In this document: one piece after another, positions 518 through 49,748 of the stretch | Layout of the letters: every line of letters starts with the position of its first letter | Position numbering within the stretch: the stretch's first letter is position 1 | Source: an uncultured Chitinophagaceae bacterium | GTDB lineage: Bacteria; Bacteroidota; Bacteroidia; Chitinophagales; Chitinophagaceae | Direction of reading: 5' to 3' | NCBI GenBank assembly: GCA_903895845.1 | Contig: CAITVK010000096.1 | Span: 1 to 64,000 of the forward strand | Length of the DNA: 64,000 nt | Notes under the pieces: model-generated | Databases searched by the model: none | Seen by the model: the letters and a program-made list of their open reading frames with translations, nothing else | What the model was told of the DNA's origin: nothing | Translations under genes and position numbers: made by a program

Positions 518-909
518 ATGAAAGAACAAGAAACTGAAACTACACAAGGTCTAATATCTGATTCAGATAAGGAGGTCAGACCTATTGTATAAAAAAAATG
601 GTTGACCTCATTGATAAACTATATTATAATTTCAGCATTTACTAACTTTATTTTTTTGGGTACACAGGAAAATCCCAAGTTATTACACATATCGGAGGCG
701 GGGTTGTTTCAAAAATAGAACTTGTCAAAACCTTGTTTATATGTTTTTTTATTTTCGTTCCAATTATAGGATTTATTTTAGGCACAATTACTACATACTT
801 ACCTTTTAAAAATGCTACCTATTCAGAAAAATATTTACCAATTTCTTTACTTACTATTTTAGCTATTGAAGTAATAATGATGCTAATTAGAATTGCAGTT
901 TTGGTTTAA
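518..909 (+). pseudogene. Broken small membrane-protein gene
   Basis: An ATG at 518 opens a frame that stops after 24 codons (TAA at 590-592, beside an A8 run). The same frame then continues to a TAG at 716, including a hydrophobic stretch (residues near NYIIISAFTNFIFLG). From about 694 another frame is open to TAA 907-909 and encodes two hydrophobic segments separated by a short polar loop (FICFFIFVPIIGFILGT and ISLLTILAIEVIMMLI). The pattern fits one membrane protein of about 130 residues with a nonsense mutation and a frameshift; sequencing error at the A8 run cannot be excluded. The family is not recognised. Its stop codon abuts the attC-like element at 910, as with the other two genes that carry this element. 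Confidence 0.55.
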
Positions 910-1039
910 CTGCTACCAACAAAAGTATTTAGGAAAGGGGCTTGCGAAAGTAATTAAGAGATAATACTTTCTTTTAGAAGTTGTTTGGAAAGGAACATTC
1001 TTTTCAAGCACCTTCCCGAACACTTATTCGTTGGTGGCA
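910..1039 (+). repeat. attC-like imperfect palindrome, copy A
   Basis: Arms at about 911-944 (starting TGCTACCAACAAAAGT) and 1005-1039 (ending TTCGTTGGTGGCA) are imperfect reverse complements, roughly 26 of 35 positions matching, with outer ACCAAC/GTTGGT. A smaller hairpin, AAAGTA (947-952) with TACTTT (965-970), sits inside. It begins immediately after the stop codon at 909. Related elements follow genes at 1755 and 19287. Size (~130 nt), position and AAC/GTT ends resemble integron attC sites, but the strict GTTRRRY core is not matched, so the name is an inference. Confidence 0.6.
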
Positions 1040-1061
1040 ATGCTTTTACACATCCTGCCAA

Positions 1062-1093
1062 TTTGAAAGCAATAGAGAAAACCTTTAAATTTG
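1062..1093 (+). promoter_or_regulatory. Bacteroidota-type promoter for the two-gene cassette
   Basis: TTTG at 1062-1065 and TAAATTTG at 1086-1093 are separated by 20 nt, matching the Bacteroidota -33/-7 consensus (TTTG, ~19-21 nt, TAnnTTTG). The ATG of the first cassette gene is 18 nt downstream. It lies after the attC-like copy A, so the cassette would carry its own promoter. Confidence 0.65.
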
Positions 1094-1111
1094 CGTCAAT
1101 AAAAAAGAGAA

Positions 1112-1369
1112 ATGGGACAAATAATAAATATTGATGAAATAAAAGCGCTGTATCCAGACGAATGGGTATTGCTTGGCAATCCAATTATGGACGACAGCAA
1201 ACTTGATGTGCTTTCAGGCATCCCATTGTTTCACAGTAAAGACAAAAAGGAAGTTTGTTACTTGGGTAGGGATAAAACCTCAAACTTTGAGAAAATAACT
1301 TTAATATATACGGGTGCTTTCAAATCAACAAGGAAAATAACAGGCATTTTTAATCGCATTACAAAATGA
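1112..1369 (+). CDS. Small unknown protein, partner of the retropepsin-like protease
   Basis: This 85-residue protein has no signal peptide or membrane segment and is probably cytoplasmic. I do not recognise a named family. The start is an ATG 18 nt after a good promoter. The stop codon overlaps the start of the next gene (ATGA at 1366-1369), so the two are translationally coupled and probably act together. The pair sits between two copies of an attC-like element, the usual place for integron-cassette cargo. Function is unknown; an accessory or inhibitor role for the protease is only an inference from the coupling. Confidence 0.75.
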   Translation: MGQIINIDEIKALYPDEWVLLGNPIMDDSKLDVLSGIPLFHSKDKKEVCYLGRDKTSNFEKITLIYTGAFKSTRKITGIFNRITK

Positions 1370-4005: not shown

Positions 4006-4602
4006 ATGATAAAAGTAGGACTCACAGGTGGGATAGGTAGCGGCAAGAGTACCGTGGCACAGGTATTTAAAACGCTTGGCATACCTGTGTTTGATGCTGA
4101 CATTGTTGCCAAAAGAATTATGGAGGAAGACAAAGTGCTTGTAGCTTCAATTAAAAAAGCATTTGGCGAGGAGTCTTATATTGGAGATAAACTGAACAGG
4201 AAATACATAGCTGATATTGTTTTTAAAGATAAGTATCAACTTGAGCTACTGAATAATCTAACACATCCCGCCACCATCAAAGCTGCAGAAGAGTGGATGG
4301 CAACACAAACAAGCCCTTATTGCATTAAAGAAGCCGCTCTCCTGTTTGAAGCGGGTACAGCAGGCAATCTGGATATTATCATTGGTGTACAAGCCCCCGA
4401 TGCTTTACGCATCAAAAGAGTGATGCACCGCGATGATATTTCCCGTCAGGAGGTACTGAACAGAATGGGAAAGCAAATAGAACAAGACATTAAAATGAGA
4501 CTCTGCGATTATGTGATTATCAATGATGAACAACGGCTCTTGATACCGCAAGTGTTGGAATTGCACAACAAATTCACCTCGGATACAACTCATAACTTAT
4601 AA
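4006..4602 (+). CDS. coaE: Dephospho-CoA kinase
   Basis: CoaE phosphorylates the 3'-hydroxyl of dephospho-CoA, the last step of CoA synthesis, in the cytoplasm. The 198-residue length is typical. The P-loop GLTGGIGSGKST is at residues 6-17, followed by the conserved GIPVFDAD (DxD) motif, the THP segment (LTHPATIKAAEEW), and the lid-region arginines in RVMHRDDISRQEVLNRM. The last codons (TTHNL, stop) are formed from a 7-nt repeat array that continues into the intergenic gap, so the natural C-terminus has probably been altered by the repeat. Confidence 0.95.
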   Translation: MIKVGLTGGIGSGKSTVAQVFKTLGIPVFDADIVAKRIMEEDKVLVASIKKAFGEESYIGDKLNRKYIADIVFKDKYQLELLNNLTHPATIKAAEEWMATQTSPYCIKEAALLFEAGTAGNLDIIIGVQAPDALRIKRVMHRDDISRQEVLNRMGKQIEQDIKMRLCDYVIINDEQRLLIPQVLELHNKFTSDTTHNL

Positions 4603-4619
4603 TTCATAACTCATAACTT
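4588..4619 (+). repeat. 7-nt phased repeat at the coaE 3' end
   Basis: CTCATAA, CTTATAA, TTCATAA, CTCATAA, CTT follow one another in exact 7-nt register. The run starts inside the last coaE codons, supplies its TAA stop, and fills the 21-nt gap to the next gene. Confidence 0.8.
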
Positions 4620-6980: not shown

Positions 6981-7182
6981 GGTGTCATTGAAGGTCAATT
7001 CATGCGCATTGAACACCGACTCTATGCCAATGAAAGCCAATTCAATTCAATCGTAATGAACGCCAACTCGGTCGCATTGAACACCAATCCGATGCCAATG
7101 AACGTCAATGCGGTCGTAATGAAGGCCAATTCACTCGCAATGATTACCAACGAGATTCCAATGAACCCCCATCCGATACTTT
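6981..7182. repeat. 21-nt phased degenerate array
   Basis: The core word (A/T)(A/T)TGAA recurs at 6987, 7008, 7029, 7055, 7076, 7097, 7118, 7139 and 7160 (one degenerate), every step 21 nt except one of 26. Units look like GTCGCATTGAACACCAATCC, with short CATTG/CAATG symmetry. Sequence identity between units is low, so the phase is better conserved than the bases. Confidence 0.8.
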
Positions 7183-7588: not shown

Positions 7589-7600
7589 GGAGAATTGTTT

Positions 7601-7670
7601 ATGAGTTATGAGTTATAAATTATAAGTCTAAGCAATCTGCCTTAACTTATAACTTATAACTCATAACTCC
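7601..7670. repeat. Inverted pair of 7-nt phased repeats (long hairpin)
   Basis: The left part (GAGTTAT, GAGTTAT, AAATTAT, AAGTC) and right part (CTTATAA, CTTATAA, CTCATAA, CTCC) both keep a 7-nt register and are near reverse complements, giving an imperfect stem of roughly 25 bp around a short loop near 7631-7640. It lies directly between the stop codon of the lyase-like gene and the upstream region of the cysteine-rich gene. Confidence 0.75.
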
Positions 7671-10600
7671 TTATTGCTTCCCCGCTTCATACAGTCTCTT
7701 CACTTCTTCGGGTTGTAACAATCTGTCGAACAATTGGAAGTTATCAATGATGGCTGGGTGACCAACAAAGAAATCCAACGCATCGGTAGCAATATCTTTC
7801 GATCCAATTCCCTTAGCAACTTGTTCGCCATTAAGGTATAGTCCTGCTTCATTTTCATTGATGCTGAGCACCACAAACTGCCACTGACCGGCTGCTACTT
7901 TTCCCCCTGATAATCTAGTAGGCCCTGCACGCAACGATCCATTGTTTATCTCGCAAGAGACAGTCTTGTAACTCTTGCCAAAGGCGGTATATCCTTCCTT
8001 ACTGAATAGTTTACCATTCTTTTCATCTGTCTTAAACCAAATAGCAATCGTCAATGCATTCTCCCGCATCTTAAGGTCGTATAGTTTAAAGGCTGCTTTT
8101 ATTGCCGGTCGGGAAACATTTACATCTACCAATCTAGCAGTTTCTGTTTCCACCGCTTGCGAAGACAATGCCTTATTACTGTGCATTCCTGCTGCTACAG
8201 ATGAGGTAGGTGCTATCCATATTTTGTAAGAAGCATCTAAAGGATAATCGCCCATCATGCCGTCCCATTTGCTTAAATCGACCTTGCCCAAAGAGCCTGC
8301 TTCGGGTATCTTCACCAACTTAACCTCCATCTTAGCAGGAAGAGTAACTGCTTTTCCATCACTGAATACTGATGCATTGATGGTGGTAGTTTTATTCAAA
8401 GTAAATGGTGCGGTATAAACTGGTGAACTAGCATTAGGAAGTGTTCCATCTAAGGTATAATGTATCTCTGCTTTCTTATCTCCTTTAAAGTCGAGAGCAA
8501 ACTTGGTGGAGTTATAGATTTCGTACAAGGTCAATGCTGTTGGTTTTCCTTCGGGAAGGATAGAAACCAGAGAAGGTCTGGAAAGATTATCGCCATTAAG
8601 GGAAACGGTTTGTCCATCGGGAAATACAACCTTACAAGTAGGTTCACTTGGGCCATAACGAAGAGAAATGGTGTGCCAGCCTTGGTCTAAACTAACATTT
8701 CCATTCAAATAGCGACCATAAACACCACGCTGAGCGATGATTTGATTATCTAACCTTACCTGATTCTGGCAACTTGCCTGCAACGCACCCAATGGGCCTG
8801 ACTCACCATTACGCATAGGTAATTTGAAGGTGTAAACGCCTGCCATTGGTGCATAGAAATATGCATTATACACCCTTACGGTATTGCGACTACTGGTAGC
8901 TTCCATGATGGTAGTACGCTCACTGTGAATAGGGGTAGCGTTATCTATATCCAAGAAGTCATTATTTCTACGCTTGCCTGAACGGTCATATACATTCAAA
9001 TCAAGACCGGGTTCTAGTAGAGGTATCTCTTTAGGAGATTGAACTATAATAGAACTACCGTTTGGTAAAGGATTGAAAATTTTATCTTGCAAAGTGTAAC
9101 CTAATTCATCGTCTTTCAACTCGTCGTTATATACAGACTGAAACTCGCCTCCATTAATTGCATAAGTAACTTCCAACGGCATAGGGTCAAGACTATTTAT
9201 ATTCCAAAATAAAGGATCACAAACCACAAGGTTTAGGTAATGCCAACCTTTCTCTAAGGATGCTTCCCCTTTGCGATGTGCTTGGTTTTGATGGAATACA
9301 CCTGTTGCTTCTATCACCGTTTGTTTGCCTAACTCAAACAATACGGGTCCGCAAGAATTTATATCAAAGGTATAAACGCCCTTCTCTTTTGCATAGAAGT
9401 AACCACTAAAGCGATAGAAGCCCTTGCATTGCTCTTCTAATGGATGGGTGGGAGTAACCTCAGGTAAATCAAAGCCATTAGTTTGCTTCACTACAATTTG
9501 CTTCTCTTTGCTCACATCAGGCATCATAATTCTTTTGGCATCGAAGAAACCTTTGTCATTATAAAGCTTTGTATTTATTTCATAAACCCTTGCAGTTAAA
9601 GCCCCTTGTTGTCCTTTCAATTCTTTGGTTATTCCTGCCTCTGCTGGTGTAGCAACAAACTTAGCAGTTAATGTTTCACTCTCTTGTGTACCTGCCGACC
9701 AAGTAGCATCTATAGTTTTAGCTTTAAGGGTACAACTGTTCTTTACTTTAATATCCCTTTCATAAAAAGGAGAAGTAGCAGTAGGTTCTGTACCATCCAA
9801 TGTGTAATGAATCTGTGCTGGGGCTGCCACCCTTTGCAGTTGTACATTTATACTATCACAAACCAAATAGGTAGGCACTTTGTCTGCATTGCGGGTGTAG
9901 CGTAAATCATTCTGATTAAAGGTTTCTCCTCTTACAATCAGGTTAGGTCTTGTTGGTTTAGCCATACTAGCTTCTGCTGCCTTGCCATTTCTTTTCAGCT
10001 CAAATACAGTACGTCCGCCATCGGTGGTAGTATAGTTATAAACGTCCTTCTGGTTCTTAAACTCCACCGTCAACTGTGTTCTATCCCTGTTCCAGGTTGT
10101 TTTAGGCACTTCCTCTCCGTATTTATACGGATATACCAACACTTTAAACTCTGGCGAGACTGCCCTTGCAGGAATAGTGACCAACGCATAACCTTCAAAC
10201 TTTTCCAGCTTTGGTACCGGGAAACCATAATCTGTCTTGCGCCACAATACCCTTATCAAACACAAAGGATCGCCCTTCTTCAACAACAACTTACCGGTCT
10301 TGGCATCTTTTGCAATATCCCCCTTCGCCAACACAATATCATCCATCCGGTTGTCGGAAGGTTCTGTATTCTGAAACTGTACTTCGGGCGTAGCCACATC
10401 CGCCAACACCGCATCTACGGGTACGGATATATTCCAATCGAACTGGTGCAACTGGTTATCTTTCTTGGCATCGTCAATTACCAATACATAAGGATTATCT
10501 CCTTTGGCAACCTGCACTGTTCTGTAGGCCTGCTCCATTGTATTCCAAGGTCTGTATCCTTCTACGAGCCTTGTCTCGGCACTCCACGGACCATAATCGG

Positions 10601-19286: not shown

Positions 19287-19862
19287 CTATTTTTTAAGTA
19301 ATCGTTTAAAGATGTACTTATTGTCTATTAGAAGGTTACCGTCTATAGTCAACTCTACTCTCATATGTAAATACTCCTTGTCAGGTGCATTTACATACTT
19401 GTCAGCCTCGTAAACTTTGTGAACCACACCATTGTCTGATGTATAAATCGAAACAGGTTTCTTTTTGCTAATATCTGAATCGTCTAACGCAATTTGGGGA
19501 CAATAGTCACAGTAAAGTAGCTTGAGATATATTGTATCCTTTCCGTTAATATTCTTAATTATTCCCTTATAATAATAAAAACCACCGTCAGAAGATGAAT
19601 AAGACTCTTTACCATTTCTAAATGACACAGGAATTTTGTCTGCCCTAACAGAGTCATTTTTAATTTCCAAGGTTGTTTCGTGATACCATTGTGATTTTGG
19701 TTCGAAGTCGTCACCATAATACCTCTTTTTGCCCTTTTCATCAGTCCACTCGTCAATCCTTAATAACCCTACGAATGTTCCATCGATTTTATTTTGTCCA
19801 AAAGTCTTTATAGTTGTACTCAGTACAATACAAAAAAATATTATTGAATAAAGTTTTACCAT
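19287..19862 (-). CDS. Small exported protein of unknown function
   Basis: An exported protein of 191 residues from the ATG at 19862 (a TTG eight codons upstream is less likely, since the signal peptide MVKLYSIIFFCIVLSTTI starts at the ATG). The mature part is polar with alternating strands (KIDGTFVGLLRIDEWTD, YYKGIIKN) and a CDYC motif near the middle. I do not recognise a family; it might be a single-domain periplasmic or outer-membrane-associated protein. The attC-like element directly after its stop codon suggests it arrived as a cassette. Confidence 0.7.
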   Translation of the reverse strand: MVKLYSIIFFCIVLSTTIKTFGQNKIDGTFVGLLRIDEWTDEKGKKRYYGDDFEPKSQWYHETTLEIKNDSVRADKIPVSFRNGKESYSSSDGGFYYYKGIIKNINGKDTIYLKLLYCDYCPQIALDDSDISKKKPVSIYTSDNGVVHKVYEADKYVNAPDKEYLHMRVELTIDGNLLIDNKYIFKRLLKK

Positions 19863-20167
19863 AAATAGGTTTTGTATAGCCACCAACTCTTAAATAGACG
19901 AAGGTTTGTTATCAAAGCTTAATATTAACAATAACCTTCAAACCCTTAACCCACATCATTTCAGTAACAAATATAATTTTTGCAAAGATTATATCTTTCC
20001 TTTCCCTTTATTGGTCTTTCCCATTGCCAATGTAGTGTGTTCTTCACCAACAACAATCAACACAACGGTTGTTTAATCAATTAATCCTCTACAAATATAT
20101 ACTTCACCCTTCATTGTTATCAATCAAAGAGACGAAGCAATGCGATTAACCTCTACTAACTACCCTT
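19863..20167. other. Non-coding gap
   Basis: No gene or strong signal is seen. AT-rich sequence lies between the small secreted protein's start and the palindromic array. Confidence 0.5.
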
Positions 20168-20533
20168 TTTTACGCAAACACTAGTCTTTGCACCCCAAAC
20201 ACTAGTGTTTGCACTCTAAACACTAGTGTTTGCACCCTAAACACTAGCGTTTGAACTCTAAACACTAGTGTTTGCACTCTAAACACTAGTGTTTGCACTC
20301 TAAACAGTAGTGTTTGCACCCTAAACAGTAGTGTTTGCACCCTAAACATTAGTGTTTGCACCCTAAACACTAATGTTTGCACTCTAAACACTACTGTTTG
20401 CAATCTAAACACTACTGTTTGCACCCCAAACACATGTGTTTGAACCCTAAACACTAGTGTTTGCACTCTAAACACTACTGTTTGCACCCTAAACACTAGT
20501 GTTTGGACCTTAAACCGTAGTGTTTGCGTAAAA
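20168..20533. repeat. 17-unit 21-nt palindromic array bounded by a 12-bp inverted repeat
   Basis: Seventeen contiguous 21-nt units (20177-20533) of the type AACACTAGTGTTTGCACTCT. Most units carry the 14-bp palindrome AAACACTAGTGTTT or a one-base variant. The array edges are a perfect 12-bp inverted repeat, TTTTACGCAAAC (20168-20179) and GTTTGCGTAAAA (20522-20533). The long frame on the minus strand (a repeated FRVQTLV heptad) follows from the 21-nt period and has no start context that supports translation. Confidence 0.92.
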
Positions 20534-20744
20534 GAGTGTGTATTTTGCTTTTGCAAATGATGGGAGTACGACTTGTTATATACAAACAAAGGAGAAAAGG
20601 CATCAATGTAGGAAGTATTTGGTGGGGAGTGGAGGGTTGTTAAAGTTCCTTTGGGATGATGCTACCAAAATATTTGGAACCATAAGGCATTTTCATCCCT
20701 TGTTTCCCCTTAATAACTTATAACTATTCCATCTTGTAAATTGA

Positions 20745-20752
20745 TATATTTG
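20745..20752 (+). promoter_or_regulatory. Candidate -7 element of pheT
   Basis: TATATTTG matches TAnnTTTG and lies 20 nt before the pheT ATG. No good TTTG is seen at the standard -33 position, so this is moderate evidence only. Confidence 0.45.
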
Positions 20753-20772: not shown

Positions 20773-23193
20773 ATGACTATCAGTTATAATTGGTTACAGG
20801 AATATTTGCCCGAAATAGTAGAACCCGAGAAGCTATCCAAAATACTTACCAGCATTGGTTTGGAGGTAGAAAGCATGGAGAAATACCAAAGCGTAAAGGG
20901 AGGATTGGATGGCTTGCTGATTGGCGAAGTACTCACCTGCGAACAACACCCCAATGCAGATAAATTGAGATTGACAACTGTTGATACCGGCGCTGCCGAA
21001 CCACTCAAAATTGTTTGCGGTGCTGCCAATGTTGCCGTTGGTCAAAAGGTAGTAGTGGCAACGGTTGGTACAACAATCCACCCCATTTCTGGCGATCCAT
21101 TAACGATGCGTGTTGCCAAAATAAGAGGCGAAGAAAGCTTCGGGATGATTTGTGCCGAAGATGAAATTGGAATCGGTACCAGCCACGAAGGAATATTGGT
21201 GTTGCCTCAAGATACAAAAGTGGGTACGCCTGCGGCCGAATACTTTAAACCATACAACGACATCATCTACGAAATAGGGCTTACCCCCAATCGGATGGAT
21301 GCAATGAGTCATCTGGGTGTTGCCAAAGATGTATTTGCCTATCTGGCGCATCATCACAAGAGCAAGGGAAAAGTGAAGAGCCCCTTTGTAAATACCTTTA
21401 AGATAGAAAATAAGAACTTGCCAGTCACTGTATCGGTAGAAGATGCAGAAGCCTGTCCGAGATATGCTGGTGTAAGTATTACTGGATTAACAGTGAAAGA
21501 ATCGCCAGAATGGCTCAAGAACAAACTGAAAGCCATTGGTCAGAGAAGCATCAATAATGTAGTGGACATTACCAACTTCATCCTGAATGAAACAGGACAA
21601 CCCCTTCACGCATTTGATGCCGACAAGATAGAAAGGAAAAGTATTATTGTAAAGAAGGCAGAACCCGATACCGTATTTACCACCCTGGATGAGAAAGAAA
21701 GGAAGTTGTTTGCCGAAGATTTATTGATATGCGATGGCAATAGAGCGCCCATGTGCATTGCAGGTGTATTTGGCGGATTGAATAGCGGCGTATCGGCCAC
21801 TACCACAAACATATTTCTGGAGAGTGCCTGCTTTGCTTCATCAGGCATCCGGAAAACATCGTTGAAGCATGGATTGAGGACAGATGCTGCCACAAGATTC
21901 GAAAAGGGCGTTGACATCTCTAATGCCGTAAACGTATTGAAACGTGCTGCGCTATTGATAAAGGAAGTAGCCGGTGGCGAAATCAGCAGCGATATCATTG
22001 ATGTTTATCCTGCGCCAAAGGAGAAAACGCTGGTATCCTTGAAGTATCAATACCTGAAGAAATTGAGTGGTAAAAACTATCATCCAGATACAGTAATGAA
22101 GATTCTGGTTGCATTGGGTTTTGAAATAAATAGGGAAGGCATCGATGAAATATCTGTTGCAGTGCCGTTTAGCAAACCCGACATCAGCCTTCCTGCTGAC
22201 TTGGTAGAAGAAATTATCCGTATAGATGGATTGGATAATATAGAGATTCCTACCACCATCACTATTTCGCCGTCAGTGAATGCATTGGGTGCAAAAGAAG
22301 CATTGAAAGACAAGATTGCCACTTATCTGATAGGGCAAGGTTTCAATGAAATTGTAACCAATTCAATTACCAACAGCAAATACTTTGGTGAGGAAGTATT
22401 GAACGGCACCGTAAAGATGATGAATAACCTGAGTGCCGATCTGGATGTATTGCGTCCTTCTATGTTGGAGACGGGGTTGGAATGTATTGCCTACAACAAC
22501 AACCGAAAGAACAACAACCTGCAACTGTTTGAATATGGAAAGACCTATCATACCAAGGGCGTAGGTTCTTATTGGGAAGATGAACACCTGGCTTTGTACA
22601 TCACTGGCGACAACCACGAAGATACCTGGCAAGAGAAAGCAAAGACGGTTGATTTCTATCGGGCAAAAGGTATTGTAGACGCAATATTGGTTTTGTCTGG
22701 ATTAGATAAAATAAGATATACCAGGGACGAGGAAACAGGAAAGATAAACGTTAGCAGTGCCAAGCAAAACATTGCCGGTATCTCTATCGTAGATGCGGCT
22801 ACCCTGAAGTCTTTCAGCATCAAGCAGGCCGTGTATTTTATAGACATCAACTATACAGCCCTACAACAACAAGTTGCAAAGACAAAGATTGTTTATAAAG
22901 AAGTACCTAAGTTTCCGGCTGTTCAGAGAGACCTGTCGTTGGTGGTTGCTGCCGACACTACCTACAATGTGTTGGAAACAGTGGTAAAAAAGGCTAATTT
23001 AGTCAAGTTGCAATCTATGCGTTTGTTCGATGTATTTGAAAGCGATAAATTAGGGGCAGGTAAAAAGTCTATGGCTGTTAACTTTACCTTCCTTGACGAA
23101 GAAAAAACGTTGACAGACAAAGAGACAGATGCCATGATGAGCAGGATCATTCAGTCTTTTGAAAAGGAACTGAATGCAGAAATAAGAAAATAA
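20773..23193 (+). CDS. pheT: Phenylalanine--tRNA ligase beta subunit
   Basis: PheT pairs with PheS to charge tRNA-Phe. The 806-residue protein (ATG at 20773, giving MTISYNWLQEYLPE) has the N-terminal EMAP-like tRNA-binding domain (~40-150), B3/B4 editing domain (~210-390), B5 domain (~400-475), the catalytic-like core (~480-690), and the C-terminal ferredoxin-fold anticodon-binding domain starting VPKFPAVQRDLSLVV (~710-806). pheS is not beside it, which is common in Bacteroidota. Two cell-division genes follow on the same strand. Confidence 0.96.
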   Translation: MTISYNWLQEYLPEIVEPEKLSKILTSIGLEVESMEKYQSVKGGLDGLLIGEVLTCEQHPNADKLRLTTVDTGAAEPLKIVCGAANVAVGQKVVVATVGTTIHPISGDPLTMRVAKIRGEESFGMICAEDEIGIGTSHEGILVLPQDTKVGTPAAEYFKPYNDIIYEIGLTPNRMDAMSHLGVAKDVFAYLAHHHKSKGKVKSPFVNTFKIENKNLPVTVSVEDAEACPRYAGVSITGLTVKESPEWLKNKLKAIGQRSINNVVDITNFILNETGQPLHAFDADKIERKSIIVKKAEPDTVFTTLDEKERKLFAEDLLICDGNRAPMCIAGVFGGLNSGVSATTTNIFLESACFASSGIRKTSLKHGLRTDAATRFEKGVDISNAVNVLKRAALLIKEVAGGEISSDIIDVYPAPKEKTLVSLKYQYLKKLSGKNYHPDTVMKILVALGFEINREGIDEISVAVPFSKPDISLPADLVEEIIRIDGLDNIEIPTTITISPSVNALGAKEALKDKIATYLIGQGFNEIVTNSITNSKYFGEEVLNGTVKMMNNLSADLDVLRPSMLETGLECIAYNNNRKNNNLQLFEYGKTYHTKGVGSYWEDEHLALYITGDNHEDTWQEKAKTVDFYRAKGIVDAILVLSGLDKIRYTRDEETGKINVSSAKQNIAGISIVDAATLKSFSIKQAVYFIDINYTALQQQVAKTKIVYKEVPKFPAVQRDLSLVVAADTTYNVLETVVKKANLVKLQSMRLFDVFESDKLGAGKKSMAVNFTFLDEEKTLTDKETDAMMSRIIQSFEKELNAEIRK

Positions 23194-23280
23194 TTGACAA
23201 TTGATAATTGATATTCGTCTTGTATTTTACCCGTCGTTCATTATCAATTATCAATTTTTAATTATCAATTATAAAAAGTT
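23192..23280. repeat. Inverted pair of 7-nt phased repeats
   Basis: AATTGAC, AATTGAT, AATTGAT (from 23192) and TTATCAA, TTATCAA, TTTTTAA, TTATCAA, TTATAAA (to 23280) both hold a 7-nt register and are largely reverse complements around a ~25-nt loop. They begin at the pheT stop codon and end 11 nt before the next start. Confidence 0.75.
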
Positions 23281-26843: not shown

Positions 26844-27289
26844 TGCCCCCTCCTTGTCATTTGTACGACTATTAGTAACAAGCCTAATAACAGCAAGTTG
26901 TATAACCCAATAAAAGCAACCTACAGTACATTAATTTACCCACCACCCATCTCTTAAATTGTACAAAAAGGTCATTTAAAATAGCAATCCATAAACATAT
27001 AATTCCCTGACACGAATAATATTCAGTTTTTTGTTTGTACGGTAACCGAAGCATAAAAACAGTAACTAGCAGTTGGAAACGTTACCGAAATCAAAACTAA
27101 AACGTTGTAGTATATTTAATAATCAATTACATAGAAATACTTCTCTTTACTACATACTTTCGTAAGAACACAATAAAAAATTAAGGACTGCTTGCTTTTT
27201 GCTATATGATTAAGCTTAAAAAAACGTCTGATTATTTATAAGGGTGATATACCACTCATACACAAAAGCGCTTGCGTAATTGCCATTTT
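26844..27289. other. Upstream region of the first giant T9SS gene
   Basis: No complete gene is seen. 26844-26930 (minus) holds a hydrophobic reading-frame remnant. Two AACGTT centres lie at 27078-27083 and 27101-27106 (separate entry). TACTTTCG at 27155-27162 could be a -7 element, leaving a ~125-nt leader before the ATG at 27290. Confidence 0.45.
27076..27106 (+). promoter_or_regulatory. Candidate LacI-type operators
   Basis: GGAAACGTTACC (27076-27087) is a near-perfect 12-bp palindrome centred on CG, the symmetry expected of LacI-family operators. A second AAACGTTG centre lies 23 nt downstream. A similar palindrome lies upstream of the other giant T9SS gene (59237-59248). Confidence 0.35.
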
Positions 27290-30200
27290 ATGAAAAAGAT
27301 ATTTACAAATTTTGCGTGCTCAAAAAGTGTCCCTACACGCACATGGCTTCTTGTTATAATTTTTTTGTTTTTTAGTGTAAGTTTATTTGCTACTACTGGA
27401 ACATTCTCATGGACAGGCGGTGGTGCTAATAATAATTGGAGCAATACTTCAAACTGGTCTGTTACAAGTGGTTCTGGTACTTATCCGGGTGCTGGTACAA
27501 ATGATGTAGTACAATTTACAAATGTTACTGCTACAGTTACTGTAGATGTAACGCCAGCAACGTTAGCAAGTATTACTTTTTATGGTTCTACTGTTCAATT
27601 TGTAGGAACCGTTGCTACCACACAAACAACTACTTCTAGCGGAATAGCTAGTGGCAATACAACAGTTACTTTAAGCGCTGCGAATGCTTCCATTGCAGCA
27701 AATCAGCAGGTTGCTATTACTTCTGGCACAGGTACTATACCTCAGTATGCTTCAGTAGTTACTTATACGAGTGGTGGGCCAACAATTGCACTTAGCAATG
27801 CACCTACAGCTAGCAACTCTGCTGCTACAACACTTACTTTTTATAATGTTGCTCCCACAATAACAACTACCAACTGTTATTTTACCAACAACAACACAGT
27901 TATTTTGGGTGGCGCATTTACGGTAAGCACATCACTTGATTTCTCTAATAGTACAGGTGCTGGGTCTAAGTTATATTTACCTAATACACAATATTTAACC
28001 GTAGGTGGATTGGCGGGTATGAGTACAACAAATGTATTTAGTGGGTCTGCGAATCCTCAACTGAAGTTTTCTGGCTCAACAGGTACTGCGTATTTTGACG
28101 CCGCTGCACCAAGTTTCTTTGGCCTGTATGTAAATAATAGCATTACCGCAACACTAGGCAATAGCGTAACTACAGCAAGGTTGAGTTATGGAACCTTTTC
28201 TAAAATTGTGCTGACAAATTCAGGAACCATTCTCTCTCATACTTTTGGTGGAACGAGTACTTATAGTGGCTTGGGTATTGATGCAAGTGCATCAGGCACT
28301 GGTATTCAGTTTGTAGGAACCTTTGCTTTGCCCAGTAATTATTTTGCTAATACAACCGTGAATACCCTGACCATGAATAAGGCTAGTAACTATGTAACAT
28401 TAGCTCAAAATCTATCAGTAACAAATCTAAATTTAACTGCTGGTTTGTTAGATAACTCAACTAATACAGTAACAGTTGCAAATGGTGGTACTATACAAAA
28501 GGGGGCGGGAAACCTAAAAGTTGCACCAATGTATGGTACTACTTCATCGGATAAAATAAATGTAACGTACACCGCTAGTGTGTCTACCGGGTTGGAGTTG
28601 CAAGGAACAACCGGAAGTGTGGGAACAGTAACTGTGAATGATGGGGTTACAACTACACTATCTAATAGTGGCATAAATAACGTTACCCCTACAACTGCTT
28701 TTCCTACGTCTTCAAATAATTATACTAGTCCTTCAATTATTTTTGGTGCTCCTTCAACAGGTGGTGTTACAGCCACTGGTACTGTAATTACTAGTGGTAG
28801 CGGAGCTACTAGAAACATTGTAGGTATCATTATTACAAATCCTGGTTCGGGTTATACATCTGCTCCAACTTGTACAATTTCAGATGGTACAGGACCTACA
28901 ATATCTTCATTTACAATTGGATTAAATTCAACCAACCCTTCTGTAACCAATGTAACAATAGGAAGCGGAACATCTGGAGTACTCACATATCCCAACTCCA
29001 CAAATGCCGTAACCCTAAATATTACGAGTGGGGTTACTGTTAATGTGGGTGCATCATTTAATTGTGGTACCCAATCTGGTACTGTAACCCATTTATTAAA
29101 TGTTGGTGGAAGCATTACTAACAGTGGAACATTTAACCTTTATAATGCAGCAACAGGCTACGTAGATGCAAATTTGAATGGGGGTAACACTCAAACATTA
29201 ACAGGAACTTTTACTTTTAATAATCTAACAATTTCAAATGCAAATGCAAACCTTGCAGCCTCTGCGGCAATTACAACAAAGGCTGCTTTAATTGTTGCGG
29301 CAAACTTTACCCAACCTGTAAATTCAACTATTAGTTCTTTCAGTCTTACTGTTAATTCGAATAAAACTTTTACCATATCTGGCACTTCTGCTAGTTCATT
29401 AAGTACAGCAAGCGCAACCAATGCAGTTTTTACGCTAAGTACTAGTAACGGTACAGTAAATAATAACGGAACGATAACTGTGAATGGTTGGATGACTAGC
29501 AACATCACGAGTGTATCTAGTGTTTACAGTGGAAGTGGCACCATTACTTTTAATAATTATTCTGTTTTTCAACAAGCGGTATCTGAAGGCACAATACCTA
29601 CAGCAACATGGAATACAGGTTCAACCTTGTACTTTACTGGTACAGCAGGTACTGCACCTACAATTCCTGCTTCTACCTATGCTAATATAATATGGAATTG
29701 TGCAAGTCAGAGTACTTCTACCGGTATGGTATTGAACCCTACCTCTATCAGTGGCGCATTGGTAGTTTTAAACACAAATACCAAAACACTTACATTGTCT
29801 ACTACAAGTACTGCCAGCACTACTATTAATGTAGGAAGCATTACTGTGGGAAGCGGTACGGGAGGGTACTCTTTTAATGGTGCTAGTATTACAACAGCAG
29901 CAGCTACTAGTTTGGTATTCTATAGTACCAATACCTCAGCCCCTACCATCTCTGTTAGTGGTGATATTAATGTTCAAGGGTACAATGCTACAGGAACTGC
30001 TACTTTAAGTAATACAAATGCTTGTACCTTAAATGCTCAAGGAAACTTTACTTTAGCTCCCAGCAATAGTACATTCACTTCTACCAATACTACTGTCAAT
30101 TTTAATGGTACTTCAGGCACACTGCAAACAATCTCAGGTACAATCACTTTTGCGGGTCTAACTATTAGTAATACTACTGCTTCGGTGGTAGTAGGAAGTG

Positions 30201-33200
30201 GTGGACTGACAATAGCATCCGGAAATACTTTGACTATAAGTAACAGTGCAGTTTTAGATATGGCATCTTATACACTAACAGTTTCTACTATAACAACTTC
30301 AGGGTCTGGCACATTAAAAACACAGAATACAAGTGCAACACCTATAACAACAGGAAAAACTTGGTCTTTTAATGTAATCTATAATAATCTTACAGGTGCA
30401 CAAACGGTAATGGCTGGCACGTACAACGGAGGGTTAACCATGAGTAATACCAGCGGTATTAATACGGCTTCTGGAAGTTTAGTACTTGCAAATGTTCCAC
30501 TTACGCTGAACTCAGGAAGTACTTTAGACTTAGGGGCATCTTACTCTATCTCAGTATCAAACACAACAGGTAATATAGGTTCCACGGGCAGTGGTACACT
30601 TAAAACAGGGAATATAAATTCTCCTACTTATAAATTAACTAGTGGTTTAACTTGGGGAGGAACAGTTGTTTACTACATACTTGGCAACCCTCGTATAGTT
30701 CCAGGTAGTTACACAAACCTTACAGTTGATAATGCTACCAGTGGGGTTACAGGTCATGCAATTAACTGGGGCAATGGAGTTGCTTCAAATGAAACAATTA
30801 GCATCTCAGGTATTTTTAGTATAGATAATATTACATCTTTTACTGCGTACTCCAATAATGTTCAGTTTACAGGTAGTAATCAATCAGTCGTGTCACTTTA
30901 CGGCTCATATCCTACCAATAATATTTCCTTTTATAACCTTGATATAAGTGGAGCAACAGGTTTTACTTTTCCTTCTGGTACAACTAACATATCAAATACA
31001 TTTATCCCAGGTACAAACACCTCCGATTATGCTACTCAGGGAACAATCAATTTCAACAACCTTACCGGAGGGCAAACAATACCTGCATTTACCTATTATA
31101 GCCTTGCTTTTGGTAACACAAGTGGTACACAAACTGCTAGTGGGGCAATTGTTGTGAAGAGTAATCTTACCCTGCCAACAAGTACAGGTGTATTTGATGT
31201 TTCTGCTAGCAATTATCCAGTATCTATCGGTGGAAACTGGGTATCTAGTGTGAGTTCAAGTTTTAACGCAGAAAGTGGAACGGTAACTTTTAATGGTACT
31301 GGCACACAAACAATTTCTGGAACAAATACCTTTTACAATTTAACTGATGTAACTGGTGGTGCAACATTGACCTTAACAGCTGGAACTACACAAACAATAA
31401 CCAATATACTTACATTAACAGGTGCATTAGGCAATTTATTAAACTTCAAATCGAGTACTTCAGCTGTTGCTTATATCACATTAACAAATTATGCCAATAC
31501 AGCTATTAGTTATTGCAATATCACTTATATAACAAATAATTCAACTACGGTTAATGCTGCAAGCTCTACAAATGGAGGAAACAATACGAACATCAAGTTC
31601 AACAATGTTTGGATAGGAGGTACTTCAGGCTCTTGGAATACCGCAACCAATTGGGGATCGGGTACTGTACCAACAAGTGGAGATGATGTTATATTTGATA
31701 ATAGTATTGCAGGAAATACTAGTCCAACAGTAAGCTTTACATCTAATCCTGTTGCAGGATCACTTACATTTAATAATAGCAATGTGACTTTCACTTACAA
31801 TGCTACTCTTACTGCTCCTTTAACTGTTTCTGGGAGCGTAACACTAAATGGATCTGTAGTATCGATGGGTACAGGAACTTCCTTAACTACCCCAAGTACT
31901 TCTGTAGCTAATAATGGAATTGGGTTGCAAGTGGGTGCATCTAGCATAGCTGGTACTCTTACATTAGCAAGTACTAACGTGGGAAGTGTTATCTATTCTA
32001 GATTATACTTATGTAACTACCAATCAAGTACAGCCACCACAAACACTCTTTATGGCCCTGTTGCAATGGATGCTAATGACTATTTGGGTGAAGCCACAAC
32101 AGGTATTGCGCCAGCACTTGTTTACGCTTATGCTCCTACAACGATTGGATCATCTACTTTTTATTTTGACCCTAATTTGCAGACCCCCTTGTTTAAGTTG
32201 ACGAGTTCTGGTGCAAAACAAACCTTGGCTTTGGGCAGTAATTTATATACTTCTAGGGTTGTTTTAGGGTCTTCGAATTTGAATACAGCAAGTAACCCTG
32301 CCATTAATTTAAATGGGAACATCCTTACAATTGGTACAGGAACTTCAACTTACACGGCGGGTACTATCAATGCAAACATAGGTCAGATCAGCTTTGATAA
32401 TACTATCGCTCCAAGTATTGGATATGCTTTATTCACCCCATCTACTGTAAATTCATTGGTTGATTCTTGCGCAGGATTGACTTTGGCTTTTTCTCAGCCT
32501 TTAACTATTACAAATCTTTATTTGAAAACAGGTGCATTAGATAATTCAACTAATAATATTACCATTCCTATTGGAGGAAATGTTTACGCTTATGGAGGCA
32601 CGTTGAATGCTGCTCCTGCTTTTGCAGGAACAGCAAATGTTACTGTGAATGCATCTTGTACAGCTGGCAATGAATTGCAGGGAACAGGAGGTTCTGTTGG
32701 TGCTTTAAACGTTAATACAGGTACTTATACACTAGCCTCCACCTCGAGTGTGGCTTCTGTAAACATCGCTAATGGGGCAACTCTAAGTTATCCTAATTCA
32801 GGTACAGCCATCACCCTAACAGTAACTGGTGATGTGGCAACTAATACTAGTGGTACTTTGACTGCTGGCACTCAAACTAGTGCCGTGTTACATCAATTAG
32901 TTTTAGGTGGCAATGTAACCGGAAGTGGGACTTTAAGTTTAACCGGTAGTGGGACTACTAAGGCAGTTGATGTTACTTTTAATAATGCTTCTTCTAGTAC
33001 TATCACTTCAGGAACATTAAGTTTTAACAGTGTAACTTTAAATAAATCTACTGGAATCACATTGGGAGGTTCTGGATCTATTGCTAATAACCTTACACTC
33101 GCTAATGGAACGCTCACAGTTGGGGCGAATACATTGACTTTGGCTGGGGTAGCTCCTAGTTTAACTTCAGGCAATATAGATGCTAGTAATAGTAGTGCCA

Positions 33201-36200
33201 CGGTTTTATTTACAAATACTACTTCTATAACATTGCCAGCTGGTCTGTTTACGGACAACATAAACAACTTTACGGTTAATGGTGCTGGTCGTGTTGTGTT
33301 GGGAGAAGCATTGACAATTAGTGGAAACCTTATCTTGACTACAGGTGCATTGGATATTTCTTCTTCCAATTACGCCATCAGTCTTGGTGGTAATCTTATA
33401 ATCACAGGGGGAAACCTTATTCCAAGAAGCGGTACAGTGACATTGAATGGTAGTGGAACTCAGACTATCTCATCAGGGCTAACCTTTAATTCGTTGTATG
33501 TATATAATGGAAGTGTTGTTATTCCAGCATTATTAACAGCATCCAATATCACAATAGGAGATGGAACACATACAATGAGTCTTACACAACCTACAGCAAC
33601 ACTTGTTTCAGTTACAAATGCATTTGCGGTATCTTCAAGTGCAAATTACACCATTGCAGCTGGCACAGGTTCTTCGGTTTCTGCAGGAACTAATAATGCT
33701 GTTCTTAATTTTAATTCGGCAAATGGAACTATTACTAATAACGGAACCATAGCCATAAATGGATGGTTTACGAACGGCAATCAAAATAGTACTACTGCTA
33801 CAACTCTTGCTGGCAGTGGAACTTGGACTATTGGTAGTCAGGGTGTATATAATCACAATACAATAAACGGAACTATCCCAACTATGACATCTTGGGTTGC
33901 AGGTTCAACTTTATATTATACTGGTACACATGGGGCAAATACGCTAGCTGCTGGAACCAATCAATCATTTAGAAAAGTTATATATAACTGTCCTACCAAC
34001 CCTTCATCTGCCAATTATTTTAATCCAAGTGCAATCCTTGATACACTTTATATTGTGAATTCTGGAACTGCTACCCCAAGAACCTTCCAAATTGAGAATA
34101 GTGTTTCAACAGTGAGTATTGGGACACTAATTGTAGGTACTGGTGCAGGCTCTTATTATTTCAACGGTGGAATATCAAGTAGTAATCCAGTTGTTGTTTC
34201 CTTAGGTACAACAACTGCACCTACAATAACTGTTGCTCGTGATGTAACTGTTCAAGGGAATAGTAGTATTAATACCGCCACTTTAACTACTTCTTCAGGT
34301 AGCTCTATATTAAATTTAGGTGGTAATTTAAATGTAGGCTCAAATGCATACTTTACAACTACAAATATTACTGTCAACCTAGACGGTTCTGGTACAAGTT
34401 CAACACCTCAAACCATAACATCTTCGGGACAAACATTTACTGCCTTAACAGTAAGCAATGCAACCTATGCCACACTTGCAAACACTATAGCAGTTATGGG
34501 GTCACTTACTTTAACATCTGGCACATTAAACGATGGAGGAAACACTGTTACTGTTAATGGAAGCATCACGGGTGCTGGTACACATACTGGTTCTGGTCAA
34601 TTGATAATTACTGGTGGAACAGCTACACATTACATTGGTAGTAGCTCAGGTACTATTAATCTTGGTAATGTACAGATAAACAGTAGTTCTTATATCTTGG
34701 GCTTAGCAGGCAATGCAGTAATTAATGGAACAATGACACTTACTGCTGGATTGTTTAATATATATAGTTACAATCTAACCCTCGCTAATGCTCCTGTTGG
34801 CTATACTTCTAGCAGTTATATTTATCATTACTCCACGGGTAATGGTACACTCACCATTAATAATGTAGGTTCAGGGTCTACAGTTTTCCCTGTAGGCATT
34901 TCTGCCAACTATGTACCTATTACTTTTACTGGAACCACAAATTCTCCTAATGTTACAGTAGGTTTTGGTTTAACATTAACTAACGCCCCACTCAATGCCA
35001 GTAATATCGTAAATGTTCAATGGTCTATTCTTTCTAGTACAGCAAGTTCGACAACTCCAACATTTCAATACAGTAGTAACAATCAAGCTAGTGGATATCT
35101 TCCTACTAGTACAATAGTAGTAGGAGCATACTCTGGCAGTGCATATTCAGAAAATCTATTAGGCGTTATTTCTGGCAGTAGCCCATATACTGTTTCAACA
35201 ACATCTGCTATTGCGCTTACAACAAGCTTAGCAAGTTTATATGCTATAGGCAATCAGTATTCTTTTGCTCCTGGAGCTCCATCTCCATCTATTACCTATT
35301 TAACAGGAGGGAACAATCAAGCCACAATCGGCTTTTCTGCAGTTACTAATGGCTCTAGTATCATTACTAATGGATATTCTGTAACACCCTACATAGGGGG
35401 TGTAGCTCAAACAACTATAACAGGAATCAATAGTAGTCCTTATATAGTTACTGGGTTAACAAATGGTACTACCTATACTTTCAAGGTGAGTGCAACCAAC
35501 AGTGTTGGAACAGGAACTAGTGCATTATCTAATTCAGTAACAATTGCGGTACCTACAATTTACGATTCCATTTTGACTAACAGAACAGCAGCTATTCAAT
35601 TAAATACCCCTTCTATAGCAACTAGCTTAATTTCTGCAACTTATGGATACATCAACGGAGGAATACTTAGTGATTCTACATTTAGTTCATTAGGGGAACC
35701 TCCTACTTTAACTAGTCCCAATAAAGATTTATATTACTTCAACTACCTTAGTCTTATTCAGAATATGGCTGAGGTATACACTTACAATTATACTTACATT
35801 AAAAATGGTGTAAATGAAACTGGATATAATAATCCTGCAGTATTGGCAGCTATCAAACAAACACTTACTTGGTGGTTACAACGTGTGCCTTACTATACTT
35901 GCAACAACTGGCATTATGCAACTATTACTTACCCTTTAAACTTAGGTAATGTGTTGGTATTGATGCGTGGTATTGGTGTTAATGTAGATACAACAGGATG
36001 GGGAGCAATTGAGAAGAATGCTATTAACTTAGTTTATGCTAATCCTGAAACTCCAAATACAGGGTTGATTGCAAATGGATATTTATCTCCATCTACGAAT
36101 ACGGGTGACAATAGAACAAATATCAGTGATTACTGGTTGGACTGGGGTTGCTTGACCAAAAATGTAAATAGCAATGGTTGGGATGTAGTAGATACTGCCA

Positions 36201-39200
36201 TCAATGAATTATATACCACAATGGACTATACACAGAGTTTGCCCGATGGATATAAACAAGATAATTCCTTTATGCAGCATTATGCCCAAGATTATACGCA
36301 ACAATATGGTGGTGGATGGGCTTATGACATTTTAGCTTTTGGGAACTATTTGAAAAATACATCAAAAGCAATGACCCAGACCAAATTGGATTTGATGTAT
36401 AATTATGTTCACAATTCTTATTATGCATCTGCAAGAGGTATTTATAAAGATTTCAATTTGAACGGAAGGGAGATTAGTATTCCAAATAATAATTTGGTGG
36501 ATAGCACCATTGCTGAAATGGGGGCGCTTGTGGATCCCACTCCATCTCACATCTCCGATTATAAAACTGACTTGGCAAATTGTGAAACTTCAAACCCTAA
36601 TTATGTTGGGGATACAATCCATACCCATTATTTTGTTTCGGATTACACCTTGCACAAACGACCAAATTACAACTTCTCGGTTCGTTCTGTATCTACACGA
36701 ACCAACATGGATGAATCGTTAAATACCCAAAATTTATTGGGTACGTTCTTGGCGCAAGGAGCTACTTCAATTATGGTTCACGGCAATGAAAATAATAATT
36801 CATTTGCCAACTGGAATTGGAATTATGTTCCAGGTGTTACTACGAGTGATTCCTTGGATGGCTCCGGCAATTCTGCTACTCAACAAAATCCTAACTATGG
36901 TCAATATGATACAGGCTATACCCGATTTGTTGGTGGTGTTAGCGATGGAAAGTATGGGGCTTCTACACTGTCTTTGAGTTATGACCACGTCACTGGCAAT
37001 AAATCTTGGTTCTTCTTTGATAGTGCGGTTGTTTGTTTAGGTGCCAACATTCAAAGTGCCAAAACAGGAATGAACACCGTGACAAGTGTAAATCAACAAT
37101 TAATCAACGGACCTATTTATTACAACAATAGTGCAGGTGGTTCTTATACAACCTTTACTGCGCCAACAGATGCAAATCCTGCCACCGTTTCAGGAACAAA
37201 TATTTACAGTGTGTTCCACGATAGTATTGGTTACTTCTTCCCCACGGGTAATAATGTTACGATCAAACAGGATAGTGTTTATGGAGACTGGTATAACATT
37301 GATAATTTGTATATCTCATCTATACCAGATACAACAGATATGTTCCAGTTGTCTATCAACCACGGTGTAGCTCCTTCCAACGGAAGTTACCAATATATAG
37401 TTGCTCCGGGGATTTCTTATTCAACAATGCAAACTTACAATCCACTTAACACAATAAACATTCTTGCAAATACAAAATATGTTCAAGCAGTTAAACACAA
37501 TGGGTTGAATATGATGCAAGTGATTTTTGATTCTGCTACAAGCATTACAGACCCAACATCTGGCATTACAGTAAAAGTGAACCAGCCTTGTGCGTTGATG
37601 CTTAGTAATATGAATCAAAACCCATTAACAGTTACAGTCTCAGATCCTACTCAGTTACTATCAACCCTCACTGTTACTATGTCGTATAGTAGTAATACTT
37701 CTCAATTTAATTTGGTCACAGAAACATTGCCTTCTGGCTATTTTGTGGGCTCTTCGGTTAGTTTCACAGTAGATTCTACTTCTGCTAATTCTAATTTATG
37801 GATAGGAGCTACAAGCACTAGTTACAATACTGCAAGCAATTGGCAGAGTGGAGTAGTACCATCCTCTGGTGCTAACATAACAATTGCTTCTGGTGCAACT
37901 TACTATCCTGTGTTAAACAGTAGTGCTGCGACTACACTTAATAATCTTACCCTCACAAGTGGGTCTTTCACAGTAAATAGTACCGATACTTTGAAGGTGA
38001 GGGGTGCTATTAACAATACAAGTGGAACAGTTACTGTAAATGGTACTGTTTCTTATTCAGGTACTACTGCTCAAACTATTGCGGCAAACACGTTTGCTAG
38101 TAATACTGTAAACAATATAAGTATTAATAATACTTCTGGAGTGACATTGGCGGGTGCGCTATATGTTGCTGGCACCGTCTATTCAACTTCTGGAACACTT
38201 AACAGTAATGGCAACCTTACTTTGCTATCTACAAGTACAGGTACTGCAAGAATGGATCAGATAGCTGGTGGTATTGCTGGTGATGTTACCGTGCAACGTT
38301 ACATTACAGCCAAGACTGCCCGTAAGTATAGTTACATAGGTAGCCCGGTAACGGCTAGCGTACGCAATAGCTGGCAACAACAAATTTATGTAACTGGTGC
38401 GGGTACTGGCGGTGTGCCTTGTGGTACGACTAATGGTGATGGTGGCAGCAACGACAAATACAACAGCAATGGGTTTGATGTAACTCAAAACAGTGCGGCT
38501 TCTATCTACAAATACAATGCAACTCTGGTTAATGGTAGCAGGTATGTAGGTATTGCCAATACTGAGTCTACCAATCTGTCGCCAGGAACTGGGTATTGTG
38601 TAAATATCCGTGGCAATAGAAACAGTAATACAGTAAACTGTGTAAACCAATTGGAGTCGAATACCCCGGCAGCACCAGAAGCAGTGACTCTAAGTGCAAC
38701 TGGTCCGGTAACTACTGGTGACCTTTCTGTTACGCTGAACAATCCTTCTGTGTATGCCTTTACTTTGTTGGCAAATCCTTATCCTTGCCAGATTAGTTTC
38801 AGTGCTTTTCAGGCAAGCAACAGCAATATCAACAACAATATGTGGACCTATAGTCCATTCGGAAACAACAATTACACCACCTACTCTAATGGTATTATTG
38901 CAAATGGTGCATCTAGCTATGATAATACCTCTGGCAACTATATTGCAAGTGGACAGGCATTTTTTGTGCAAGCCAATGCGCCTGGTTCTGTTACTTTCCA
39001 CGAAAGCCACAAGACAAATGGGGCATTGCCTGGTACGCAATATTTTGGGACTGACGTAAACAGAATAATAAGGATAGGATTGAAAGATAACAGCGAAACA
39101 AGTCTGTTGGATGAGATTGTTGTTCGTTACAACAGCAATGGTTCCGACGTGTACACCCAAGGTTGGGATGCAAGTTCATTAAGCAGTGGTAGCCAGATTC

Positions 39201-45604: not shown

Positions 45605-45815
45605 CCAGAAAAGCGAGTTTTTCTTTAAAGGAATATAGTTTTTCTTAGAAAGAAAAGTTAGAAACTAACAAAGAATGGAAGTTTTATTAGAAAGAATCAG
45701 AGGAAACTAATAAAGAAAATAAGCTTTCTCTTGTGGAATTAGTTTTTCTTTAAAAGAAAAACAAGAAACTAACAAAGAAACATTGGAAACTAACAAAGAA
45801 AAACTGCAAAAACCT
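45605..45815. repeat. 21-nt phased A-rich array with inverted halves
   Basis: AGTTTTTCTT(T/A) occurs at 45616 and 45637 (step 21) and 45741. GAAACTAA(C/T)AAAGAA occurs at 45661, 45703 (step 42), 45765 and 45786 (step 21), with a degenerate unit at 45682. The two words are partly reverse-complementary (AAAGAAAAACT), so the array reads as an inverted pair. GTTAGAAACTAAC is a small palindrome in it. Confidence 0.7.
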
Positions 45816-49202: not shown

Positions 49203-49748
49203 GTACCAATACCGATGCGCCCGACACAGAAAATCTTCGAATTCATGTAGTCGGTTAGATGACTGACACAGCGAATCTTCGAATTTGTACAGTCGGCCAG
49301 ATGACCGACACAGCAAATCTTTAAATTCATGTAGTCAGTTAGATGACCGACATAAAAAATCTTCGAACTCATGTAGTCGGTTAGATGACCGACACAGCGA
49401 ATCTTCAAATTTATGTAGTCAGTTAAATGACCGACACGGCAAATTTTTGTATTTGCCCTAGCACAAGAACTCGTGACACAGCAAATCTTCGAATTTGCCC
49501 TAGCACAAGAACTCGTGTTACAGCAAATCTTCGAATTTGCCCTAGCACGAGAACTCGTGACACAGCAAATCTTCTAATTCGCCCTGACACGAGAACTCGT
49601 GACACAGCAAATCTTCGAATTCGCCATAGCACGAGAACTCGTGTTACAGCAAATCTTCGAATTCACCCTGACACAAGAACTCGTGTTACAGCAAATCTTC
49701 GAATTCGCCCTAGCACGAGAACTCGTGTTATAGCAAATCTTTTTCCTC
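49203..49748. repeat. 26-unit modular 21-nt array with alternating and swapped half units
   Basis: Contiguous 21-nt units alternate X-Y-X-Y. X (13 copies) is based on ACAGCAAATCTTCGAATT. Y exists in two unrelated types: Y1 based on GTAGTCGGTTAGATGACCG (six copies, 49203-49433, the first degenerate) and Y2 based on CTAGCACGAGAACTCGTG (seven copies, 49455-49727). Y1 contains GTCGGT/ACCGAC and Y2 contains CACGAG/CTCGTG inverted repeats. The X unit stays the same across the switch at 49434-49455. No translation signal is seen for the open frames created by the period. Confidence 0.93.

Follow-up and report, generated by a model that had tools for sequence, protein, structure and literature searches.

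Why are tandem repeats whose length is constant but whose sequence changes retained in some bacteria? The question has been a puzzle since this class of repeats was first described, and the genome of an uncultured Chitinophagaceae bacterium presents a very dense case. We analyze one of its arrays, located upstream of pheT in a window of 64,000 nucleotides (contig CAITVK010000096.1, positions 1 to 64,000; "the window" denotes this whole stretch). We ask what kind of element the array is, which of its features are kept in relatives, and what might recognize it.

TRF reports a period of 21, 16.8 copies, 88% matches, 0% indels, and a score of 515 at 20176-20527, the top tandem-repeat score in the window. 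Counted in register, the array spans 20176..20532, with no strand assigned, and holds 17 units of 21 bp, each composed of a 14-bp core, AAA-S-A-S-W-W-S-T-S-TTT, and a 7-bp spacer, mostly GCACYCT. Six units carry AAACACTAGTGTTT exactly, 9 have one change, and 2 (units 13 and 17) have two. An earlier note, made from the letters of this DNA, had described 17 phased copies of a 21-nt unit, and this is confirmed; its wording that each unit is exact or a one-base variant suits 15 of the 17 and was slightly too strict. It had also reported array ends that are exact reverse complements. These are the 12-bp left cap TTTTACGCAAAC (20168..20179, plus strand) and right cap GTTTGCGTAAAA (20522..20533, plus strand), an inverted repeat with no outward extension beyond 20168-20179 / 20522-20533. 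The outward continuation of the right cap, ...GAGTGTGTATTTTG, matches GCGTAAAAGAGNGTATTCTTTG of related arrays. TTTTACGCAAAC is found 3 times in the 4.0-Mb genome, 2 of these being the array ends. The genome search for further copies of the 14-mer, which the note had proposed, returned 10 matches, all within this array or one sister array, and 0 for a reversed-pattern control; the assembly is a draft of 138 contigs, several of which end inside arrays, so copy numbers are uncertain and may be collapsed.

The neighbors of the array are recQ, an orphan gene, and pheT. The last of these (20773..23193, plus strand; NCBIfam TIGR00472, E 1.4e-227) has its ATG at 20773, 240 nt downstream of the array, as the note had stated. 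The orphan gene (19287..19859, minus strand) lies downstream of a putative divergent promoter and encodes a small protein with no match in Pfam or NCBIfam. Apart from the source genome, a homologue occurs in a single congener (35% identity), so the surroundings of the array are lineage-specific. The array itself sits between two divergent promoter-like sites, both directed outward and both recognized as consensus matches only. One is a Bacteroidetes-type -7 element, TATATTTG, at 20092..20099 on the minus strand, directed away from the array. The other, TATATTTG at 20745..20752 on the plus strand, is the presumed pheT promoter and stands beside a pheT start that is conserved in relatives.

The same intergenic region holds a hairpin motif, GCCnnTGTWGTGTGTTCTTCACCAACAA (20026..20053, plus strand), that recurs at scattered sites in six genomes of the genus. 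A dispersed module in the genus (window 20026-20053; L054-L057, L066-L068, L075, L076, L099) consists of inverted copies of CGCCGTTGTTGKGTGTTCTTCACCAACA. In several loci these copies flank a TACAAATATATA promoter-like core, often with an adjoining 21-, 41-, or 42-bp array, and the module resembles a MITE or an invertible promoter.

A second copy of the array, with 11 units, is present in the same genome at G000:C39. The two copies have both flanks in common, with no strand assigned: the left flank at 19930..20167 (about 240-242 bp, 81%, rising to 83% for the 179 bp nearest the array), part of which is also multi-copy in congeners, and the right flank at 20534..20631 (98 bp, 81%). In each copy a TATATTTG site, again a consensus match, is directed outward exactly 84 bp from the array; the gene downstream of it encodes a leucine-rich-repeat protein at C39 and the orphan protein at the pheT-side array. 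The end repeat of the sister array is imperfect. Relative to their flanks, both copies (n = 2) face the same way, which lends no support to the suggestion of a unit able to invert.

Two copies with 81% similar flanks are what a dispersed, non-autonomous mobile element (MITE-like) could leave behind, with the inverted caps as its ends, and this explanation also agrees with the 25-86 bp of common flank at several capped arrays of the congener G004 and with an adjoining orphan gene nearly unique to the source genome. However, the copied unit does not end at the caps, since homology continues past them by about 240 and 98 bp, and neither a target-site duplication nor an empty site could be established. 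We consider a mobile element quite improbable.

Two congeners carry arrays related to this one, G004 with five loci and G002 with a single locus; the unit pattern had no matches in other named genomes or in viral contigs. Related arrays with both ends readable carry the same end sequence on either side, outward GTGTTTGCGTAAAAGAGNGTATTCTTTG with variations, and inverted caps occur at the ends of related loci in three species. The inverted repeat that closes the array is thus a conserved cap. In several related arrays the inversion extends to the outermost units (AAACACTACGGTTT and AAACCGTAGTGTTT), giving the element an overall dyad. The view that the array is closed off like a defined element holds, given the inverted cap at related array ends in other species and the flanks shared with the sister.

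Within this family, half-sites are selectively conserved over the spacer. Across 56 distinct units from the six related arrays of the two other species, positions 1-3 (AAA) and 12-14 (TTT) carry 1.87-2.0 bits, whereas spacer positions 16-20 carry only 0.1-0.2 bits and are near random; the arrays were collected by similarity to the pheT-upstream array, which may favor units that keep the half-sites, and unit similarity also reflects descent. Covariation is absent from pairs 4-11, 5-10, and 6-9 (p 0.32, 0.99, 0.99) and present only at the central adjacent step 7-8 (p 0.0003). The arm pairs therefore speak against a hairpin, and the central step fits dyad-symmetric recognition of a duplex. Invariant half-sites together with uncompensated arms indicate that half-sites and spacing are kept, not a foldable stem. 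The unit that the earlier note called palindromic is a near-palindrome; a perfect palindrome is not the conserved feature, the AAA/TTT half-sites and their spacing being conserved instead. It is chiefly on this unit pattern of the family that we base the proposed recognition of duplex DNA.

The same units bear on two explanations that place the function in a product of the array. The first is a transcribed RNA element, either a hairpin array or a small RNA, for which the transcribed satellites of Bacillus coagulans offer a precedent (PMC8625621). The arms show no covariation, the nearby promoter-like sites are directed away from the array, and no Rfam family comes near its gathering score. Hairpin RNA was rejected on the missing covariation and the lack of an Rfam match near threshold, and a transcribed element appears very unlikely. 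The second is a protein-coding heptapeptide repeat, since one frame is open over the array (minus-strand ORF 20170-20589, with VQTLVFR repeats). Yet no frame stays open in 3 of 8 family arrays, the product has no Pfam match, the class includes 41- and 22-bp arrays, and open frames are by our own estimate about as frequent as chance for short units. As frames are not kept across the family, coding is refuted in practice, and we give it almost no credence.

The array is one of many in its genome. A sample of 856 kb, about 21% of the 4.0-Mb genome, yielded 73 tandem arrays with a minimum length of 60 bp; of these, 69 lie outside long ORFs and are counted as non-coding, a crude, ORF-based call. 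The period is 20-22, 41-43, or 62-63 bp in 67 of these 69, compared with 2 of 11 arrays in 2.09 Mb from Bacteroidota outside the genus (Fisher p 1e-8), where the control held 14 non-coding arrays and was reduced to 11 by leaving out a same-lineage locus. Density is about 8 arrays per 100 kb in the source genome and 0.7 in the controls; extrapolated, the whole genome would hold about 300-320 arrays. Two further sampled members of the genus have a similar period tendency. Indels are rare (14 versus 622 substitutions), and strongly palindromic 21-bp units amount to 31%, against 4% of background 21-mers. Arrays weakly avoid convergent gaps, on crude ORF-based gene calls: among those with both neighbors known in the first 456 kb, 1 of 28 lies between convergent genes, versus 12 of 113 large gaps.

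Sequence varies across these arrays. Among the 62 unit sequences are 45 of which no two have a 9-mer in common, and no motif is clearly common to the arrays of the source genome: counts at k=5-8 are near the shuffled null, except in one small family of four arrays. A common recognition motif across the genome was accordingly rejected. Inverted ends were likewise discarded as characteristic of the class, having turned up in 3 of 57 arrays (null 1.5%). The arrays have one dominant repeat length, sequences that are unrelated between families, and a non-coding location, and the array upstream of pheT is a member of the "constant repeat length, variable sequence" satellite class. A period that is nearly always 21 bases or a multiple of it, across differing sequences, suggests that the distance between units is important in its own right, with the DNA held by something at one point in every two turns.

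Subirana and Messeguer described constant-length, variable-sequence tandem repeats in Bacillus and other bacteria (PMC8161180; survey PMC6749651). These authors related the 20-21 nt class of Bacillus to two helix turns and proposed a polymerising-protein, nucleoid-protein, or RNA role (PMC8161180). The arrays studied here resemble the Bacillus satellites in having many non-coding families per genome, a length of about two turns, unrelated sequences between families, and a lineage-restricted distribution. They differ in their host, an uncultured Chitinophagaceae genus, in common double units of 42 bp (and 41), in an enriched palindromic subset, and in the inverted caps and dyad of the pheT-upstream array family. 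A short sequence in most repeats of a species, which is reported for Bacillus but is not strictly defining, has no counterpart here. The literature searched, with most subscription journals outside its scope, held no description of such repeats in Chitinophagaceae. What is new relative to the known, unexplained class is the lineage, the extreme density, the 42-bp doublets, and the capped dyad family.

Other repeat systems share single features with the array. BIMEs are palindromic repeats grouped with REP. REP units (PMC3733652 for REP families) are 20-40 bp long and occur in high copy. Both are, like the present arrays, palindromic, intergenic, and dispersed; here, however, the repeats follow one another in tandem every 21 bp, and it is the whole array that forms the unit. 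Partition centromeres of the parC/tubC type and iterons normally occupy one or few loci beside par or rep genes. They too consist of tandem sites in helical phase, theirs being bound by dimers. In contrast, the present family has two copies in a genome with several hundred arrays, and recQ, the orphan gene, and pheT are the neighbors instead of par genes. With about 8 class arrays per 100 kb and no common motif as well, the partition site proposed in the earlier note is unlikely. In phased A-tract upstream promoter DNA, as in this array, A/T tracts recur at intervals of 10-11 bp ahead of promoters; the tracts here are only 3 bp, and curvature is not maintained in related arrays.

Curvature deserves its own weighing, because phased A/T tracts could bend the DNA and the bend could be the function. 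Both this array and its sister rank with the most curved arrays (ENDS 2.27 and 2.19 versus a background 99th percentile of 1.33) and exceed column-shuffled units (p 0.026 and 0.040). Under the same full wedge model, however, the related G004 arrays are no more curved than column shuffles (p 0.18-0.49), the G002 array is only marginal (p 0.066), and the p values across 48 arrays do not depart from uniform. An apparent class-wide 10-bp AA/TT phasing, with z 3.3 against base shuffles, falls to only 1.4 against dinucleotide-preserving shuffles and was discarded. Curvature as a class-wide feature was rejected. It lies above shuffles in the array and sister and is not kept in the G004 homologues; intrinsic curvature as the function is improbable.

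The arrays could also be selfish or neutral satellites, functionless products of a mutational process of the genus that duplicates 21-bp steps whatever the sequence. Such a process agrees with unit sequences that are mostly unrelated and without a common motif, with the location of arrays in intergenic gaps, and with the orthologous regions upstream of pheT in congeners: G006 and G005/G012 carry arrays of unrelated sequence there, and several others carry none. Arrays at this position are about what the genome-wide density would give, and a conserved array at the pheT position was rejected. Neutrality is harder to reconcile with almost invariant half-sites beside a near-random spacer in 56 units, with conserved caps, and with the excess of palindromic 21-bp units over background. 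Neutral expansion of 21-bp steps is possible for the class as a whole or for other families; as the explanation of this locus we find it somewhat unlikely.

The best explanation, to which we assign a probability of about 0.42, is a non-coding element of the satellite class whose phased half-sites would form a protein-coated platform between divergent promoters. Each 21-bp family unit would offer two half-sites, AAAS and STTT, 11 then 10 bp apart; contacts would repeat on the same helix face every turn, over about 34 turns, with inverted caps marking the ends. A candidate dimeric or polymerising DNA-binding protein, of nucleoid or regulatory type, may coat the array, and the coated array could shape or insulate the DNA between the two promoters. 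The half-site data agree better with recognition of double-stranded half-sites along a single face of the helix than with an RNA hairpin, with coding, or with drift alone. Of the multi-site binding platform that the note had envisaged, the nucleoid type is retained as the best-supported mechanism, presumably in this form, and the partition type is not. The contrast built into the capped family (invariant half-sites, random spacer, fixed spacing) makes the idea of a phased protein platform testable on one DNA fragment.

The wider class has no common motif beyond small families, so one sequence-specific protein cannot serve all arrays. The genus may possess dedicated machinery: a protein able to polymerise on any repeat phased at two turns, or else an enzyme by which DNA is duplicated in 21-bp steps. 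Such a system would build and keep about 300 arrays of diverse sequence in intergenic regions that carry promoters, and a minority of these arrays would have specific inverted caps. We regard this as speculative and unlikely.

Several minor observations concern other repeats. Further arrays with 21/42-bp periods, mostly of unrelated sequence, lie in the window at 1-210, 6989-7166, 49221-49741, and 45753-45804 (the last short); the contig end truncates the one at 1-210, whose reverse complement stands at the start of contig C35. Within the source genome, some dispersed arrays form a small family with CCCTTGCTTGGTTCT in common (L107 9497, L116 17594, L120 8981, L313 13399). Intergenic heptamer-type repeats and inverted repeats (AACTCAT, ATTATCA, TTATAACTCATAACT) occur in the window at 4587-4618, 23240-23272, and 7600-7672, and a 4252-aa ORF beside the region (window 27272-40030) is low-complexity and repeat-rich, with surface-protein character. 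Upstream of pheT in two species, 41-bp arrays have similar units (CACAAATCTTTCC ... CTCGCCA), at L130 (G012, 774-1287, minus strand) and L133 (G005, 752-985), and are apparently an orthologous array that persisted.
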